A stretch of DNA of 34,487 bases from a virus. The notes under the pieces are model-generated. The model was not told the DNA's origin and made no database searches. It was given only the letters and a program-made list of their open reading frames with translations. Made by a program: the position numbers and the translations under genes. Of this stretch, positions 14,899 through 21,027 are shown in pieces; position 1 is the stretch's first letter, and every line of letters begins with the position of its first letter. Location: positions 1 to 34,487 of the IMG/VR virus record IMGVR_UViG_3300022188_000031. One strand, 5' to 3'.

Positions 14899-16131
14899 TT
14901 ATGCGTCGCTCACGATAATTCTGACGATTGCATCAGAGTGTATTGGACTGACACCGTGACTCATTGTAAGTTTCATTCTTACTTGGTCTGCGTTTGGCCA
15001 ATCAAAGACCTTTATTTCAGGCTTGACTCCCCAGACCAATGCTCCTACTGGTCCTGCCTTAACAAGACCACATAGGTGTGCGTTAGTATCGAATGACTGG
15101 TTGCTTCCTTGTGTAACGATGCTATCTCCACTTGAGATGGATGGTACCTTTGTTGTGCTTACAACTTTAATTCCTAGATACCTACCAATTTCACCATTGA
15201 GTACTACTTCATTGCTACCGTATTCGGAAGCATTCACGAACTGAGAGTCCTTGAGTAATGCTTCCTCTTGCTCAGGTGCAATGAATAGCACGAATGGCTC
15301 CTTTGCAGTAGGTTCCCAAGTATTCTTAGTTACACTGGATTTAGTGAATGTGTTGGAATTCCAGTAATATCCGTGATTTGACATTAATAGTCTCTTTGCT
15401 TTTGCTATTAAGTCAGTTGTTAGAACATCTCCTGGGTCCAGACTGTTGTCTGCATCAGTGGCGTCACCTCCATATATCGTCTGGCAACCATTTGTTGTAT
15501 CACTCATTTCGGTTGCTCCTAAACTTGGAGATGAGCCGGCAGTACCTAGAATAGCGTCTCTGATAGCGGAGTCAATGGAATTCTCATATTTGTATGAGAG
15601 TTCCTCTCTGGCATATGTTACTAGGTTCAATGCATTTGTTCGTATTGCTTCATTTGTCAAAGCAATACCATAGTTGTATCGTGTTGGTGTTATCTGGACA
15701 CCATTTAATGTGTTTATCTGAGTCCATGAAATTTCGCTTCCAGCAGCATATTCAGCACTGGAAGATTCCCATGAACTGTCAGATAGATACTTCGTTCTGT
15801 ATGGTATAATGATGTCCTTGTGTCCTTCTGGTAGTGTGTATTGAGTTACTATTTGCAAGAATCTCATTCTTTCCTTTGCTGCATCAATTGCCTTCTTCAA
15901 GTACATTATTGGCTGTAGCATATATGCATTGCTTACAGCACCTCCTCTTGTTGATGTAGTGGATGTTACTGTTGAAGCGAGTTCAAAAACTCTCCATCCT
16001 AGAGCATTGGTCTTTGGCTCATAGGAAAGCTGGAGAGTTACGTCACCTGCATTGTTGTATAGTCTTTCTCTGAGATATTGTAACATTGATATGTCTACAT
16101 CTTCAGTTGTTCCGGCTGTTGGGTAATTCAT
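14899..16131 (-). CDS. nested in-frame product: major capsid protein alone (internal start)
   Basis: Same frame, starting at Met380 (MNYPTAGTTEDVDISMLQYL), 410 residues, a normal size for an HK97-fold major capsid protein. AAAGGTGAT (GGTGAT at 16138-16143) lies 6 nt before the ATG, the same spacing as the other internal site. This start coincides with the beginning of the capsid domain. Confidence 0.6.
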   Translation of the reverse strand: MNYPTAGTTEDVDISMLQYLRERLYNNAGDVTLQLSYEPKTNALGWRVFELASTVTSTTSTRGGAVSNAYMLQPIMYLKKAIDAAKERMRFLQIVTQYTLPEGHKDIIIPYRTKYLSDSSWESSSAEYAAGSEISWTQINTLNGVQITPTRYNYGIALTNEAIRTNALNLVTYAREELSYKYENSIDSAIRDAILGTAGSSPSLGATEMSDTTNGCQTIYGGDATDADNSLDPGDVLTTDLIAKAKRLLMSNHGYYWNSNTFTKSSVTKNTWEPTAKEPFVLFIAPEQEEALLKDSQFVNASEYGSNEVVLNGEIGRYLGIKVVSTTKVPSISSGDSIVTQGSNQSFDTNAHLCGLVKAGPVGALVWGVKPEIKVFDWPNADQVRMKLTMSHGVSPIHSDAIVRIIVSDA

Positions 16132-16764
16132 ATTTATATCACCTTTAACAGATAGTTTTACACCTTTATTTTCTTCACTTAATTTTTGTTCCATATCAGA
16201 ATTCTTCTTTACTTTTTTCCATTCTTTTGCAGCGGCTTTGACTAACTCAGAGCCCTTGAGCTCTGGATGTTTCTTAGCAAACTCCTTGACGAACTTTGTA
16301 AACTCTGAATTTAATAATTCCTTCTTACCCAAGTACTCGAGCAAATTCCAAACATCATGGTAAGAAATTGCCCTAAGTTCTTGGGTAGTTTCCTTGCTTC
16401 TGCTGTCTACAACGACAACTTCTGGCTTAGTCTCGGCCTGCTCTTCCTCAACAGTCTCAGACTGAGCAGGCGTTTCTTCTGGCTTTGTCTCTGGTTCAGG
16501 TTCTGGCTTTGTTTCTTCTTCATTCTTTTTAGTTTCTGGATATGCATACTTATCAGGGTATGGATATTTCTCTTCTTTCTTTTTCTTTTCCTTGTTTTTT
16601 TCTGTTGTAGGAGGGTATGGATACTCCTCCTTCTTTTTCTTTTCTTTTAATTCTTCATTTTCTGGTTTAGCTTCTGGCTTTGTTTCTTCTTTAGGTTCCT
16701 CGTGAGCAACGGGAGCGTTTTGGCTGGTCTCTTCGTTCTTGAAGTCTATATTTTCTTCAGCCAT
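14899..16764 (-). CDS. nested in-frame product: scaffold-capsid (internal start)
   Basis: Same frame as the polyprotein, starting at Met169 (MAEENIDFKNEE). GGTGAG at 16771-16776 stands 6 nt before the ATG, matching the best ribosome binding sites in this cluster. It falls exactly at the end of the protease region, so the product would be scaffold plus capsid without protease. Comparable to lambda C/Nu3 nested starts. Confidence 0.6.
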   Translation of the reverse strand: MAEENIDFKNEETSQNAPVAHEEPKEETKPEAKPENEELKEKKKKEEYPYPPTTEKNKEKKKKEEKYPYPDKYAYPETKKNEEETKPEPEPETKPEETPAQSETVEEEQAETKPEVVVVDSRSKETTQELRAISYHDVWNLLEYLGKKELLNSEFTKFVKEFAKKHPELKGSELVKAAAKEWKKVKKNSDMEQKLSEENKGVKLSVKGDINMNYPTAGTTEDVDISMLQYLRERLYNNAGDVTLQLSYEPKTNALGWRVFELASTVTSTTSTRGGAVSNAYMLQPIMYLKKAIDAAKERMRFLQIVTQYTLPEGHKDIIIPYRTKYLSDSSWESSSAEYAAGSEISWTQINTLNGVQITPTRYNYGIALTNEAIRTNALNLVTYAREELSYKYENSIDSAIRDAILGTAGSSPSLGATEMSDTTNGCQTIYGGDATDADNSLDPGDVLTTDLIAKAKRLLMSNHGYYWNSNTFTKSSVTKNTWEPTAKEPFVLFIAPEQEEALLKDSQFVNASEYGSNEVVLNGEIGRYLGIKVVSTTKVPSISSGDSIVTQGSNQSFDTNAHLCGLVKAGPVGALVWGVKPEIKVFDWPNADQVRMKLTMSHGVSPIHSDAIVRIIVSDA

Positions 16765-17268
16765 AATTCGCTCACCGTCTTGATTTAATACGAAGAGACT
16801 ATTAGGGATTAAATCGATACCGTCTCCGGTATCATTAGCTTTATTCAAAAATGTACGTTTACAAGCTGGTTCTACAACCAGTGAAAAGTTTTTAAATATA
16901 AAGTCTTTTACACTACCAGACTCTCCTCTACCTACAATCTTGGGGCTAATACCAAATTTAGCACCCATCAGTATAGCCTTTTGAGCATTTTCATCAGCAA
17001 TAATCAAATCAGCAATAATAGTACCATCATCTAAATATTTAGGATTTTCAATAAATCCAATCCAAGATTTAGCACTGGTATCATCATGGTCATAAAACAA
17101 ATATCTTATGCTAGGATTCTCCCAGTCAGTATTCTCAAATGCCTCTTTAAGTTCCTGTTTATCATAGTACCATTGATTCCACACTCCTGTACTCATTACT
17201 GGATGCTGATGAATCCTAAGAATCTTAAATCCGTTCAGTTTCTCCCAACTGATTTTACTCTTAGGCAT
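14899..17268 (-). CDS. prohead protease-scaffold-major capsid polyprotein
   Basis: 789 residues. Residues 1-165 look like an HK97 gp4/herpes-type prohead protease: RYLFYDHDD (candidate His61), FIENPKYLDDGTIIADLIIA, AKFGISPKIVG (candidate Ser108) and FSLVVEPACKRTF. Residues about 170-300 are a Lys/Glu/Pro-rich scaffold-like linker with YPYP motifs. Residues about 300-360 are helical (FVKEFAKKHPELKGSELVKA, HMG/YABBY-like pattern). From residue 380 it is an HK97-fold capsid protein (YLKKAIDAAKERMRFLQIV, GIALTNEAIRTNALN, EPFVLFIAPEQEEALLKD, SHGVSPIHSDAIVRIIV). The first ATG is leaderless behind a TATA box. Two internal in-frame ATGs have strong ribosome binding sites, so shorter products are likely. 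Confidence 0.85.
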   Translation of the reverse strand: MPKSKISWEKLNGFKILRIHQHPVMSTGVWNQWYYDKQELKEAFENTDWENPSIRYLFYDHDDTSAKSWIGFIENPKYLDDGTIIADLIIADENAQKAILMGAKFGISPKIVGRGESGSVKDFIFKNFSLVVEPACKRTFLNKANDTGDGIDLIPNSLFVLNQDGERIMAEENIDFKNEETSQNAPVAHEEPKEETKPEAKPENEELKEKKKKEEYPYPPTTEKNKEKKKKEEKYPYPDKYAYPETKKNEEETKPEPEPETKPEETPAQSETVEEEQAETKPEVVVVDSRSKETTQELRAISYHDVWNLLEYLGKKELLNSEFTKFVKEFAKKHPELKGSELVKAAAKEWKKVKKNSDMEQKLSEENKGVKLSVKGDINMNYPTAGTTEDVDISMLQYLRERLYNNAGDVTLQLSYEPKTNALGWRVFELASTVTSTTSTRGGAVSNAYMLQPIMYLKKAIDAAKERMRFLQIVTQYTLPEGHKDIIIPYRTKYLSDSSWESSSAEYAAGSEISWTQINTLNGVQITPTRYNYGIALTNEAIRTNALNLVTYAREELSYKYENSIDSAIRDAILGTAGSSPSLGATEMSDTTNGCQTIYGGDATDADNSLDPGDVLTTDLIAKAKRLLMSNHGYYWNSNTFTKSSVTKNTWEPTAKEPFVLFIAPEQEEALLKDSQFVNASEYGSNEVVLNGEIGRYLGIKVVSTTKVPSISSGDSIVTQGSNQSFDTNAHLCGLVKAGPVGALVWGVKPEIKVFDWPNADQVRMKLTMSHGVSPIHSDAIVRIIVSDA

Positions 17269-17292
17269 AATATATTATAGCAATTATCGAAT

Positions 17293-17300
17293 ATTTAAAT
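17293..17300 (-). promoter_or_regulatory. TATA box of the capsid polyprotein gene (leaderless)
   Basis: Minus strand GTATTTAAAT centred about 28 nt before the ATG at 17268, with no ribosome binding site in between. The same ten bases, GTATTTAAAT, precede terminase. This puts the transcription start at or next to the start codon. Confidence 0.6.
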
Positions 17301-17318: not shown

Positions 17319-20300
17319 CTAAATAAGTCCTAATTGCCTCTGATATAAATATACAGTATTAGGACTAAGTGAAAGCTCATCTGCAATTGTTTTTCTGGAT
17401 ATTCCTGCTTTGGTCATTAAGTATATTCGAGCAAGTTGTTGAGAACTTAGCTTGGGTGGTTTACCTACAGATTTGACTTTATCCCATAACATTATCCATT
17501 TGTTCTTTTCAATATGGGCAATGTGGTAAGAATATTTGCCAGTCACATTGATTAATTTTTTAGGTGGCTTAACTAGAACAGGGGCACCTTCTTTTTTAGC
17601 TTGCTCTATTGGTTTCAAATTAATAATTCCTTTATCAGACTTTAATTCGAAATGAATCAAATGGTCATTAACTTGATGTATGGTATAAATCCCTCTAGCT
17701 ATAATTGTAAATACTCCAGGATAATGAGTACCAGCTGTTCCGATTTTATGAGTCACGCCTTCAAAGAATAACCAATCGATAGGTTCTGGGACTTTTATTG
17801 TACCTCTTACATGTTTGTCAGCCCCATAATTAGTTTCTTCTATTGTTGATGGTTCAAATAGAGTTATACCTTCTAATATTCCTTCCAATTCATCTTTTTC
17901 AAACAGTGTTTCTGCTTTACTATAAGTCAAGACTTTTCCATAATCTTTAGCTGGAATGAAAAATCTAACATCCCTATGAGCCTTTTTACCTATGGTATGA
18001 ACTTGCATTACAAATGGCATCCAGAGCTTATTATCCATTATCTTTTTGAAATTAGCTTGCATTCTGAGCGGGAAATCTCTGACATAAATGTCATGCCCTT
18101 CTGTTTTGGGTTCTGAAGCTAATTTCTTGACAGCAAATCCAATCGATTGAACAATGTTTTCTAAATCATCAACTGTAGATGTAGTTTTCTTTTCTGTAAC
18201 ATGGGCTACTCTTGGTTTGTGAATTGAATAGTGTATACCACTAGAAGTTTCATGTCTCCAAATTTCTTCAATTAAAATTGAAATAATCTTACCTGCATCA
18301 ATTTTTTCATCGGTATTGAAAGTACGACCCAAAACCAAAACATTCTTTCCATTGAGAGTGACTACTTTCTTTGGATTTATCATGTTCATATCTTTTTTTC
18401 TTAGATAGATTCCTACGGTATAATTGTATAATCCTCTTTCTTTAGGATTCCTCTGTAAAACTACTACATCTATATCAACCAAATGTCTATACTTTATCCA
18501 AGCATGTGAAGTTTCATCAAATGAATATGGTGCATCTAGTCTCTTAATCACTGCACCCTCAGAACCTTGTAAATCGGCCGCCCATTTAATTGCCTTCTCA
18601 ACTTCTTCTTTACCTTTAGCAAACTTTCTTGGAATTTTAATTACTCTGTTGTTAAATTTCAGCTTGTGTAAATATTTGATTCTTTCTTTCAATGGTAAAT
18701 GAAGAATAGGCTTATTGTAGTAAATTATATCCCAAACAAAAAGTTTGACATTTTTATCATCAACTTTCTTACCAGATTCTATTGCTCCAATAAATTTCAT
18801 TAGTCCTCTGCGACCAGCAACTTTGTTTCCTTCAAATAAAATTAATTCGCCATCAATTATGAAATCTTCTTTGCTTAATTTTCTAATAGCCTCAATTAAA
18901 GTTGGGAAAGCATCTGTAATGTCTTTTCTCTGCTCTGAAAATATTTTTACTTTATCACCAGATTTGTGAATGCAAGCATGAAATCCATTTGCTTTATATT
19001 CGATGGAATATTCGACATTATCTTCAATTTCTTCCATTACATCTGGAATTTTGTAATATGCAGAACCATAAGGTTTTTGAGGCAGATAAGGCGTAAACAT
19101 TTTTAAATTCACTGCCATTTCAATTACTTTTGGTGGTAGTACTCTGACTAATTTCAAGTCATAAATTGGAATGTAATCATCATGGGGACCAGAAGATTCA
19201 CCAAAAATGAAATGTAATTTATTCGCTAATTCATCTGGCAACATTTTCATTAATCTAACTCTAATTGCACGTTCAAGAAAATCATTTCTAATAGCTGTAT
19301 GACATTTAGGACAGATGATTGGTTCTACTCTAACTAATAAATCAATATCATTAGGATAATGCCCATCTTTGGATTTAACTGTAGAACCAACCAAGCTAAT
19401 TACATCTTTGATGACTGTGAAATCATCAAATTCTTTCAGAAATTTTTCGGGATTGTTTAAATCATATCTTTTGTTTATTATTTCCTTCTTTCTACTTACT
19501 ATTTTGTAAAGTTCTAAAGCATAGTTTTTATAATGTTCTGGATGAAACTGGATTCCTCTTTTTTTCAATTCATCATAGATTAATTTGGCAAGATTTATTA
19601 TTGTCTCTTCAGAATATTTGAATTTTCCTTTAGTTTTCAAAGTTGTGTACCAAGCTAAGACGATTCTCCAGTCATCTTTAAGAACTCTGGTTGGTAACTT
19701 GCTTGGGTTATAAGTTTTAACATTTTCAATTAACTCGACATTAGCAAACTCAATCTCTTCTACTACAGTTTCCAAACCTTCTTTAGGCTTCCACCTTATT
19801 GGATTAATGAATCTATCAATCCAAGTAAAACTATATTCCCAAAATTCCTTTTGGTGTTTCCACCAATTCTTAATTTCATCTTCGGAAATCAAATGTAGAT
19901 TTTTTCTTTCTTCAAATTGTTTCTTAGTAATTTTGTTTGGTGGATGTAATCTGATAACTCCATAAACATAATGTTTATCAACTAAGTACAATGCCTTATC
20001 AACTGAATCTATTTTTTTGTTCAAAACTATTAACTGTTGTTTATCCTGCCAAACCCATTTGGCATGAGGTTCGGGAAGATATAATCCTTCTCGATATTTA
20101 TCTTCTAAATCTAAAGTCATTCCATCATAAGCAAGTAAAACTTTAGTACTGCAGTCTCTTCTAATCTCTTCCCAGTATTTCAATATTTCCTTTTCTGCTA
20201 CTTCAAACTTAGGATAAGTGTGACCAGCTTGAATTAAGATTGCTACTTTAGGTTCATACTTTTTTATTAATCCAAGTGCAGTTTCAACTGATTGATGTCC

Positions 20301-20858
20301 TTTAATTTGCTTGCCAAAGTACATTGCTGCATCTAATATCCAGAGTTTAGCATTATAGAAGTATTTATCACTTTCTTTTGGTATTTCACCTAAATCCTCA
20401 CTATAAATAATATCATTAAAACGATAAGCTACAGTTGGAAATCCGGGCTGAATAGAATGCTCAATTCTAATTGGTAAAAACTTTATCCCATCGACTTCAA
20501 ATTCTTCATAAGGCTTGATGAAATGAGGTTTTAATAAATCTATATTCTTATAATTTTCTTTTATTCTAGCCCACGTTTGTTTTTCGCAATAAAAATCCAG
20601 TGTCTGAATATCTTGGTCTGCTAACCAGTGTATTAAATTAGGAATCCCACCAATTACATCATGATGTGCATGAGTACATAAAACAAAATCAATTTTTTTG
20701 ATATTATTAGCCTTTATTTGCTCAGTGAATTGTGGCGTTACATCTATAATGAATTTCGAGTTCTTTATCTCAAAATAACAAGAACTATTCGTTCTTCTAT
20801 CCTTACCTTCACCCCTCACGGGTTCAGTTGGGCCTGAGCCAAGAATAATCAGTTTCAT
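17319..20858 (-). CDS. multidomain end-processing protein: MBL, Pol-beta NTase, ATP ligase, LigD-PE-like, HTH
   Basis: About 1179 residues from the ATG at 20858; an in-frame ATG at 20876 adds six, and the numbers here use that longer form. Residues 7-250: metallo-beta-lactamase fold (THAHHDVIGG at 68-77, H140, D161, H219). 263-360: a beta domain resembling PUA/ASCH (GLYLPEPHAKWVWQDKQQLI). 485-590: Pol-beta-type nucleotidyltransferase (GS 497-498, D510-I-D512, D573). 620-890: ATP-dependent ligase core plus OB fold (K628-A-N-G, IIDGE 673-677, SEGAVIKR 772-779, WIKYR 793-797). 955-1100: LigD 3'-phosphoesterase-like (H960, H967-R-D969-V-R971, FFEG). 1143-1185: helix-turn-helix. It would process and seal nucleic-acid ends. 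Unusual place, between portal and capsid genes. Confidence 0.8.
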   Translation of the reverse strand: MKLIILGSGPTEPVRGEGKDRRTNSSCYFEIKNSKFIIDVTPQFTEQIKANNIKKIDFVLCTHAHHDVIGGIPNLIHWLADQDIQTLDFYCEKQTWARIKENYKNIDLLKPHFIKPYEEFEVDGIKFLPIRIEHSIQPGFPTVAYRFNDIIYSEDLGEIPKESDKYFYNAKLWILDAAMYFGKQIKGHQSVETALGLIKKYEPKVAILIQAGHTYPKFEVAEKEILKYWEEIRRDCSTKVLLAYDGMTLDLEDKYREGLYLPEPHAKWVWQDKQQLIVLNKKIDSVDKALYLVDKHYVYGVIRLHPPNKITKKQFEERKNLHLISEDEIKNWWKHQKEFWEYSFTWIDRFINPIRWKPKEGLETVVEEIEFANVELIENVKTYNPSKLPTRVLKDDWRIVLAWYTTLKTKGKFKYSEETIINLAKLIYDELKKRGIQFHPEHYKNYALELYKIVSRKKEIINKRYDLNNPEKFLKEFDDFTVIKDVISLVGSTVKSKDGHYPNDIDLLVRVEPIICPKCHTAIRNDFLERAIRVRLMKMLPDELANKLHFIFGESSGPHDDYIPIYDLKLVRVLPPKVIEMAVNLKMFTPYLPQKPYGSAYYKIPDVMEEIEDNVEYSIEYKANGFHACIHKSGDKVKIFSEQRKDITDAFPTLIEAIRKLSKEDFIIDGELILFEGNKVAGRRGLMKFIGAIESGKKVDDKNVKLFVWDIIYYNKPILHLPLKERIKYLHKLKFNNRVIKIPRKFAKGKEEVEKAIKWAADLQGSEGAVIKRLDAPYSFDETSHAWIKYRHLVDIDVVVLQRNPKERGLYNYTVGIYLRKKDMNMINPKKVVTLNGKNVLVLGRTFNTDEKIDAGKIISILIEEIWRHETSSGIHYSIHKPRVAHVTEKKTTSTVDDLENIVQSIGFAVKKLASEPKTEGHDIYVRDFPLRMQANFKKIMDNKLWMPFVMQVHTIGKKAHRDVRFFIPAKDYGKVLTYSKAETLFEKDELEGILEGITLFEPSTIEETNYGADKHVRGTIKVPEPIDWLFFEGVTHKIGTAGTHYPGVFTIIARGIYTIHQVNDHLIHFELKSDKGIINLKPIEQAKKEGAPVLVKPPKKLINVTGKYSYHIAHIEKNKWIMLWDKVKSVGKPPKLSSQQLARIYLMTKAGISRKTIADELSLSPNTVYLYQRQLGLI

Positions 20859-21027
20859 AAACCATCTTCCTCGCATTAAATTCCAATCGATTTAATACCT
20901 TTTTGACCAAATCAATTGGAATGTCCAACGCTTCCGAAATTAAATCTGCATTCAATCCATGTATATTTTGTACGTGCAAATAAAACAAAAATTCCACTAT
21001 TTGTTTTTCAGCTTCCTTTTCATTCAC
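20824..21027 (-). CDS. small winged-helix-like protein
   Basis: About 67 residues from a GTG at 21027 preceded by GGTGATTCAT; an alternative GTG at 21036 overlaps the portal stop as GTGA. The sequence EKQIVEFLFYLHVQNIHGLN, then ISEALDIPIDLVKKVLNRLE, then MVYETDYSWL fits a compact winged helix (helices plus a beta wing). It sits between portal and the ligase fusion and overlaps the latter by 35 nt. Could be a small DNA-binding partner of the fusion or a regulator. Confidence 0.55.
   Translation of the reverse strand: MNEKEAEKQIVEFLFYLHVQNIHGLNADLISEALDIPIDLVKKVLNRLEFNARKMVYETDYSWLRPN

Follow-up and report, generated by a model that had tools for sequence, protein, structure and literature searches.

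A viral gene that carries protease, scaffold and capsid in a single frame raises the question of how these products are delivered, whether by nested translation starts, by proteolysis or by both. The gene considered here is one open reading frame of 789 codons on the minus strand of a 34,487-nt stretch of virus DNA, which was analysed over its full length and is referred to below as the window (Table 1). The initial annotation had proposed three levels of translation for it, with a leaderless first ATG and two internal ATGs, each behind a Shine-Dalgarno (SD) sequence, for scaffold and for capsid.

Domains, relatives and host

The capsid part of the gene is matched by Pfam PF25209 (E 8e-7, above the cut-off), PHROG 544 (E 5e-13) and the NCBIfam N4-gp56 capsid family (E 4e-16, just below the NCBIfam cut-off). 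An AlphaFold model of the product that would begin at M380, of moderate confidence (pLDDT 70), had as its best PDB match in Foldseek the capsid of Ralstonia phage GP4 (E 3.5e-14), and judged by the fold of this model together with the family match the protein is an HK97-fold major capsid protein (MCP). The protease model was compared with the phage T4 protease gp21 (VIA Z 12.2 over 122 residues, rmsd 3.0) and, with a weaker result, with the herpesvirus assemblins (VIA Z up to 7.4); on these model comparisons the domain has the T4 gp21/herpes assemblin fold, shared over most of its length. In an alignment of 23 protease sequences His61 and Ser108 do not vary, which makes them the putative catalytic residues. 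PHROGs gave a single marginal match when searched against the 23 family members and do not cover this protease family.

Alignments place the scaffold domain in frame and 3' of the protease domain within the same open reading frame. It is charged, with K-rich YPYP repeats and a C-terminal helix, and the segment EDVDISMLQYLRERLYN near its end matches the last segment before the stop codon in the scaffolds of relatives. The YPYP repeats (KKKKYPYPE and similar) of the window scaffold (16054-16764) also occur in the scaffolds of many relatives.

Relatives were sought in IMG/VR, in GTDB genomes and among annotated phages. Those close over the whole gene are L002-L004, L044 and L069, and a wider family shares protease and capsid; the portal as query gave no relatives, and a first scan of genome contigs with the capsid gave none. 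One family member, L040, lies in an Aenigmatarchaeota MAG, another, L043, in a second Aenigmatarchaeota genome, and an Altiarchaeum virus is distantly related, which together point to a host that is probably a DPANN archaeon, the contigs being metagenomic and the assignment drawn from two MAGs.

Table 1. Features of the fusion gene and its upstream region in the window
Feature	Position	Strand	Basis or remark
TATA box TTTAAATA	17292..17299	-	begins 31 nt 5' of first ATG
Protease-scaffold-capsid fusion gene, 789 aa	14899..17268	-	Pfam, PHROG and NCBIfam capsid matches
Protease domain, residues 1-142	16843..17268	-	alignment; invariant His61 and Ser108; model pLDDT 89
SD GGTGA of nested scaffold start, 7-nt spacer	16772..16776	-	position conserved in relatives, codons vary
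Start codon M169, very likely nested scaffold-capsid start (621-aa product)	16762..16764	-	aligned with L069 M167
Scaffold domain, residues about 169-405	16054..16764	-	alignments with relatives
GGTGA before M380, SD-like	16139..16143	-	not conserved; partly LSVKG(D/E) peptide
ATG M380, candidate third start, inside scaffold C-terminal region	16129..16131	-	alignment with relatives
Scaffold C-terminal segment EDVDISMLQYLRERLYN	16054..16104	-	alignments; short helix in model
Codons 405-407 (AAC AAT GCA), site of relatives' capsid start codon	16048..16056	-	alignment
HK97-fold capsid core, residues about 428-789	14902..15987	-	alignment, model, Foldseek

The first ATG and the probable scaffold start

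The first ATG (M1) has an SD energy of +1.3 kcal/mol, equivalent to no SD, and the TATA box that begins 31 nt upstream implies transcription from a point at or near the ATG. The same pattern is conserved in the relatives: 64% of 28 genes have a TATA-like box (at least 7/8) 27-36 nt 5' of their protease ATG, compared with 5% of random positions, and the protease ATGs mostly lack an SD. The upstream start of the fusion gene is probably leaderless, in agreement with what had been proposed. A short motif (TTCGATAA or CGAAAAATTG) recurs 3' of the TATA box and before the protease ATG, both in the window (17281-17299) and in the protease promoters of relatives.

Both internal in-frame ATGs of the initial annotation, M169 (16764) and M380 (16131), are present with GGTGA upstream, although the spacer measures 7 nt at each site and not the 6 nt given there. 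The next gene (ATG 14780) has GGTGA at this same 7-nt spacing, and the motif is a common SD in the genome, found upstream of many gene starts in the window. In 26 window genes (9,070 codons) there are 128 internal in-frame ATGs, of which M169 and M380 alone have an SD of -7.9 kcal/mol or lower, M380 being the strongest of all; that both should occur in one gene with 13 of the 128 has a p of about 0.01. Synonymous recoding of the window alone gave p 0.50 for M169 and p 0.25 for M380. Recoding fails to separate these SDs from the Gly-Glu and Gly-Asp codons in which they lie, so that comparison with relatives has to decide. The mRNA structure around the starts was uninformative.

M169 was confirmed to lie at the protease/scaffold border. 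With the in-frame starts of the window and of 25 dereplicated relatives ordered by SD energy, 25 of the 26 genes had an assignable border site, and in 22 of those 25 it carried the strongest in-frame SD. An internal ATG with an SD of -10 kcal/mol or lower is present in 22 of the 30 dereplicated genes of the family and in 38 of the 491 control ORFs, and the best internal SD reaches -8 or lower in 27 of 30 against 71 of 491; the family genes are kin and their counts not independent, and as the top-scoring ATG is sometimes another than the border site (e.g. in the window, L014 and L019), both comparisons measure an enrichment of strong starts and not their position at the border. The control ORFs came from the same loci and were scored identically, with the best site per gene picked in both sets.

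The border SD is strong in L040 (-10.6 kcal/mol), L044 (-10.7) and L069 (-8.6), and the residues that encode it differ from relative to relative (EV, EE, GG, GE or GD). In L069, M167 aligns with M169 of the window and the GGTGA stands one codon closer, 4 nt before the Met; in L035 the SD lies in another codon phase and precedes a TTG start; and in L016, L017, L020, L027 and L028 it comes after an extra post-protease domain. L024 has a weak border SD only, and the distant Altiarchaeum virus has no border SD. For M169, conservation of GGTGA beyond what its codons require, the check that the initial annotation had suggested, is borne out by an SD that is kept while the codons vary. The pattern agrees with selection on ribosome entry where the scaffold begins, and M169 is very likely a conserved nested, SD-led scaffold start. 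Chance or a codon artefact, with which the window alone would be compatible, is ruled out by the relatives and the control ORFs.

Some relatives have two SD-led internal starts, at codons 172 and 268 in L043 (reverse strand) and at codons 169 and 253 in L010, with the first of each pair behind the protease and the second behind an inserted domain. Nesting on several levels may therefore be present in the protease-scaffold portion of such genes.

The capsid fusion and the M380 site

The 25 relatives checked all have an unfused capsid ORF, located at the scaffold stop or close to it and in most cases led by an SD of its own, and the capsid is unfused in L040 and L044 too. Among the matches listed, which include the capsid relatives L070-L138, the window and L069 alone have scaffold and capsid fused; the L069 fusion gene is 55% identical to that of the window. 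A near-identical scaffold-capsid junction was not found in the viral contigs searched. We considered and rejected a sequencing error as the origin of the fusion, since the scaffold C-terminus and the capsid share one frame with neither a stop nor an in-frame start where they meet, and L069 is a second case of fusion; a single base error is thus an insufficient explanation. The trees disagree on a single origin of the fusion: the window and L069 form a pair by protease (96/92) but not by capsid. The L003 capsid groups with the window capsid (90/92), with its protease on a long branch elsewhere, a pattern that suggests mosaic exchange of head genes.

By alignment, the capsid genes of the relatives begin at the equivalent of window residues 405-407, where the window gene has neither a stop codon nor an in-frame start. 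A further GGTGA (16047-16043) stands 7 nt before a CTC, the same distance as from the L035 SD to its ATG, and may be a relic of the SD of the capsid gene, although in the ungapped protein alignment the former capsid start falls upstream of this GGTGA.

M380 lies about 26 codons upstream of this position, between an LSVK motif and the scaffold C-terminal segment, and the alignment rules it out as the capsid start of the relatives. The proposal that M380 opens the capsid domain does not hold, given the relatives' start at 405-407, a core that begins near residue 428 and a model of the M380 product in which the first 72 residues are disordered. No strong-SD start was seen at the M380 position in the relatives examined, and the close relatives have no start codon there. 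In L069, the only other fused gene among the matches listed, no start with an SD of -6.5 or lower is found at the capsid border, and the best of the ATGs nearby (M306) has an SD of -4.0 kcal/mol with poor spacing. The LSVK(G)(D/E) motif recurs in scaffold C-termini that have no start codon, and the GGTGA before M380 is explained in part by the conserved LSVKG(D/E) peptide. Conservation of the M380 site, on which the proposal had been staked beforehand, was sought and the site found to be absent in the relatives, L069 included. Of the three levels first proposed, the leaderless start and the nested scaffold start are conserved in about 30 genes, whereas the capsid start at M380 is without comparative support.

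Expression of the gene and its precedents

We consider it likely that two starts, the leaderless M1 and the nested, SD-led M169, operate together with proteolysis, and that the capsid is made as a cis-scaffold fusion in a probable DPANN head-tail virus. The TATA promoter would give a transcript beginning at or near the first ATG, and leaderless initiation at M1 would yield a protease-scaffold-capsid polyprotein. The SD-led start at M169, where we infer that initiation takes place, would yield scaffold-capsid without protease, in a presumed ratio that leaves most subunits protease-free. In relatives the equivalent of M169 would produce a plain scaffold, the capsid gene being separate, and in the lineage of the window loss of the scaffold stop and of the start codon belonging to the capsid would have given the scaffold-capsid fusion. 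Each shell subunit would bear its scaffold in cis, in the manner of the HK97 delta domain, and packaged protease would cut the scaffold off at a putative cleavage site. Initiation at M380 would be an optional, lineage-specific extra.

A gene in which M1, M169 and M380 are all used and M380 supplies most capsid subunits, with a scaffold-derived N-terminus of 26 residues, seems to us rather unlikely, and we take the same guarded view of its evolutionary form, one leaderless and two SD-led starts with the M380 capsid start gained after the fusion had destroyed the original. The exceptional SD strength of M380, its spacing like that of the next gene and its place in the scaffold-capsid linker, where a replacement for the lost capsid start would be useful, argue for such a use of the site; its absence from L069 and the close relatives, the recoding result, the overlap of its SD with the LSVKG(D/E) peptide and its distance from the relatives' capsid start argue against it. 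We regard it as improbable that M1 is the single start, with autocleavage releasing protease, scaffold and capsid and the internal SDs being accidental. Pseudomonas phage MD8 gp5 is a protease-scaffold-MCP gene for which internal starts go unmentioned (PMC8508860), and protease-MCP fusions are described in thaumarchaeal proviruses (PMC6563490). However, proteolysis by itself leaves unexplained a border SD that is conserved with varying codons in nearly all relatives, and would leave each capsid subunit with a protease attached, as against about 60 proteases per 415 MCP in HK97 (PMC12749128).

It is also improbable, in our estimation, that the nested scaffold is made from an internal transcript of its own, as with herpesvirus UL26.5. 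The nested protease and scaffold products of herpesviruses come from separate transcripts, and TATA-like boxes (at least 7/8) are present 27-36 nt 5' of the nested starts in 32% of the genes, compared with 5% at random; however, the window has a TATA score of only 5/8 upstream of M169 and M380, and a leaderless internal transcript would not need the conserved SD.

The two-start reading has its closest parallels in lambda C/Nu3 and the Mu-like phages, in which the 3' portion of the protease gene encodes the scaffold from an SD-led in-frame start of its own, as described for PaMx73 and Mu (PMC4378225). As in lambda C/Nu3 and Mu I/Z, the scaffold of the window lies in frame in the protease gene with an SD-led inner start, from which its production is predicted; the window gene differs in its T4 gp21/assemblin-fold protease, in a leaderless-looking upstream start with an archaeal TATA box and in the fused capsid. 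Herpesvirus UL26/UL26.5, a protease-scaffold ORF with a 3'-coterminal in-frame nested scaffold (PMC4498786), shares the nesting and the general fold of the protease, whereas here the inner start is marked by an SD, and the herpesvirus capsid is not fused. MD8 gp5 likewise has one gene for protease, scaffold and MCP, with a protease region that resembles lambda gpC (PMC8508860) and not the window family; at its scaffold/capsid border no SD-led start (-6.5 or lower) was found, candidates lying only within or near the protease region. The delta domain of HK97 gp5 is a cis scaffold N-terminal to the capsid that is removed by the protease (PMC12749128), a removal that we predict by analogy for the window gene, but HK97 has its protease in a gene of its own and lacks a nested start. 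The thaumarchaeal proviruses Nvie-Pro1, NCAV2-Pro1 and NitIsl-Pro1 are also archaeal head-tail elements with a protease fused to the MCP, in their case described as chymotrypsin-like or S78-type (PMC6563490).

Each element of the gene has a precedent; in the open-licence literature we found no report of the combination, nor of internal starts together with a capsid fusion. The in-frame nesting of protease and scaffold would be extended to viruses probably of DPANN archaea, and, with a leaderless start upstream and an SD-led one inside the gene, two modes of initiation on one message would determine the protease:scaffold ratio. The fused lineage of the window and L069 would be a natural experiment in the passage from a trans-acting to a cis-acting scaffold.

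Between the portal and the protease, the window also encodes a protein of 1185 aa (17319-20876, minus strand) with a metallo-beta-lactamase fold, a nucleotidyltransferase-like stretch, an ATP-dependent DNA ligase domain (E 1e-28) and a C-terminal HTH. Relatives of this protein occupy the same position in L002-L004, some with what looks by eye like a methylase-like insertion, and a ligase-domain protein is unusual content for a head gene cluster.
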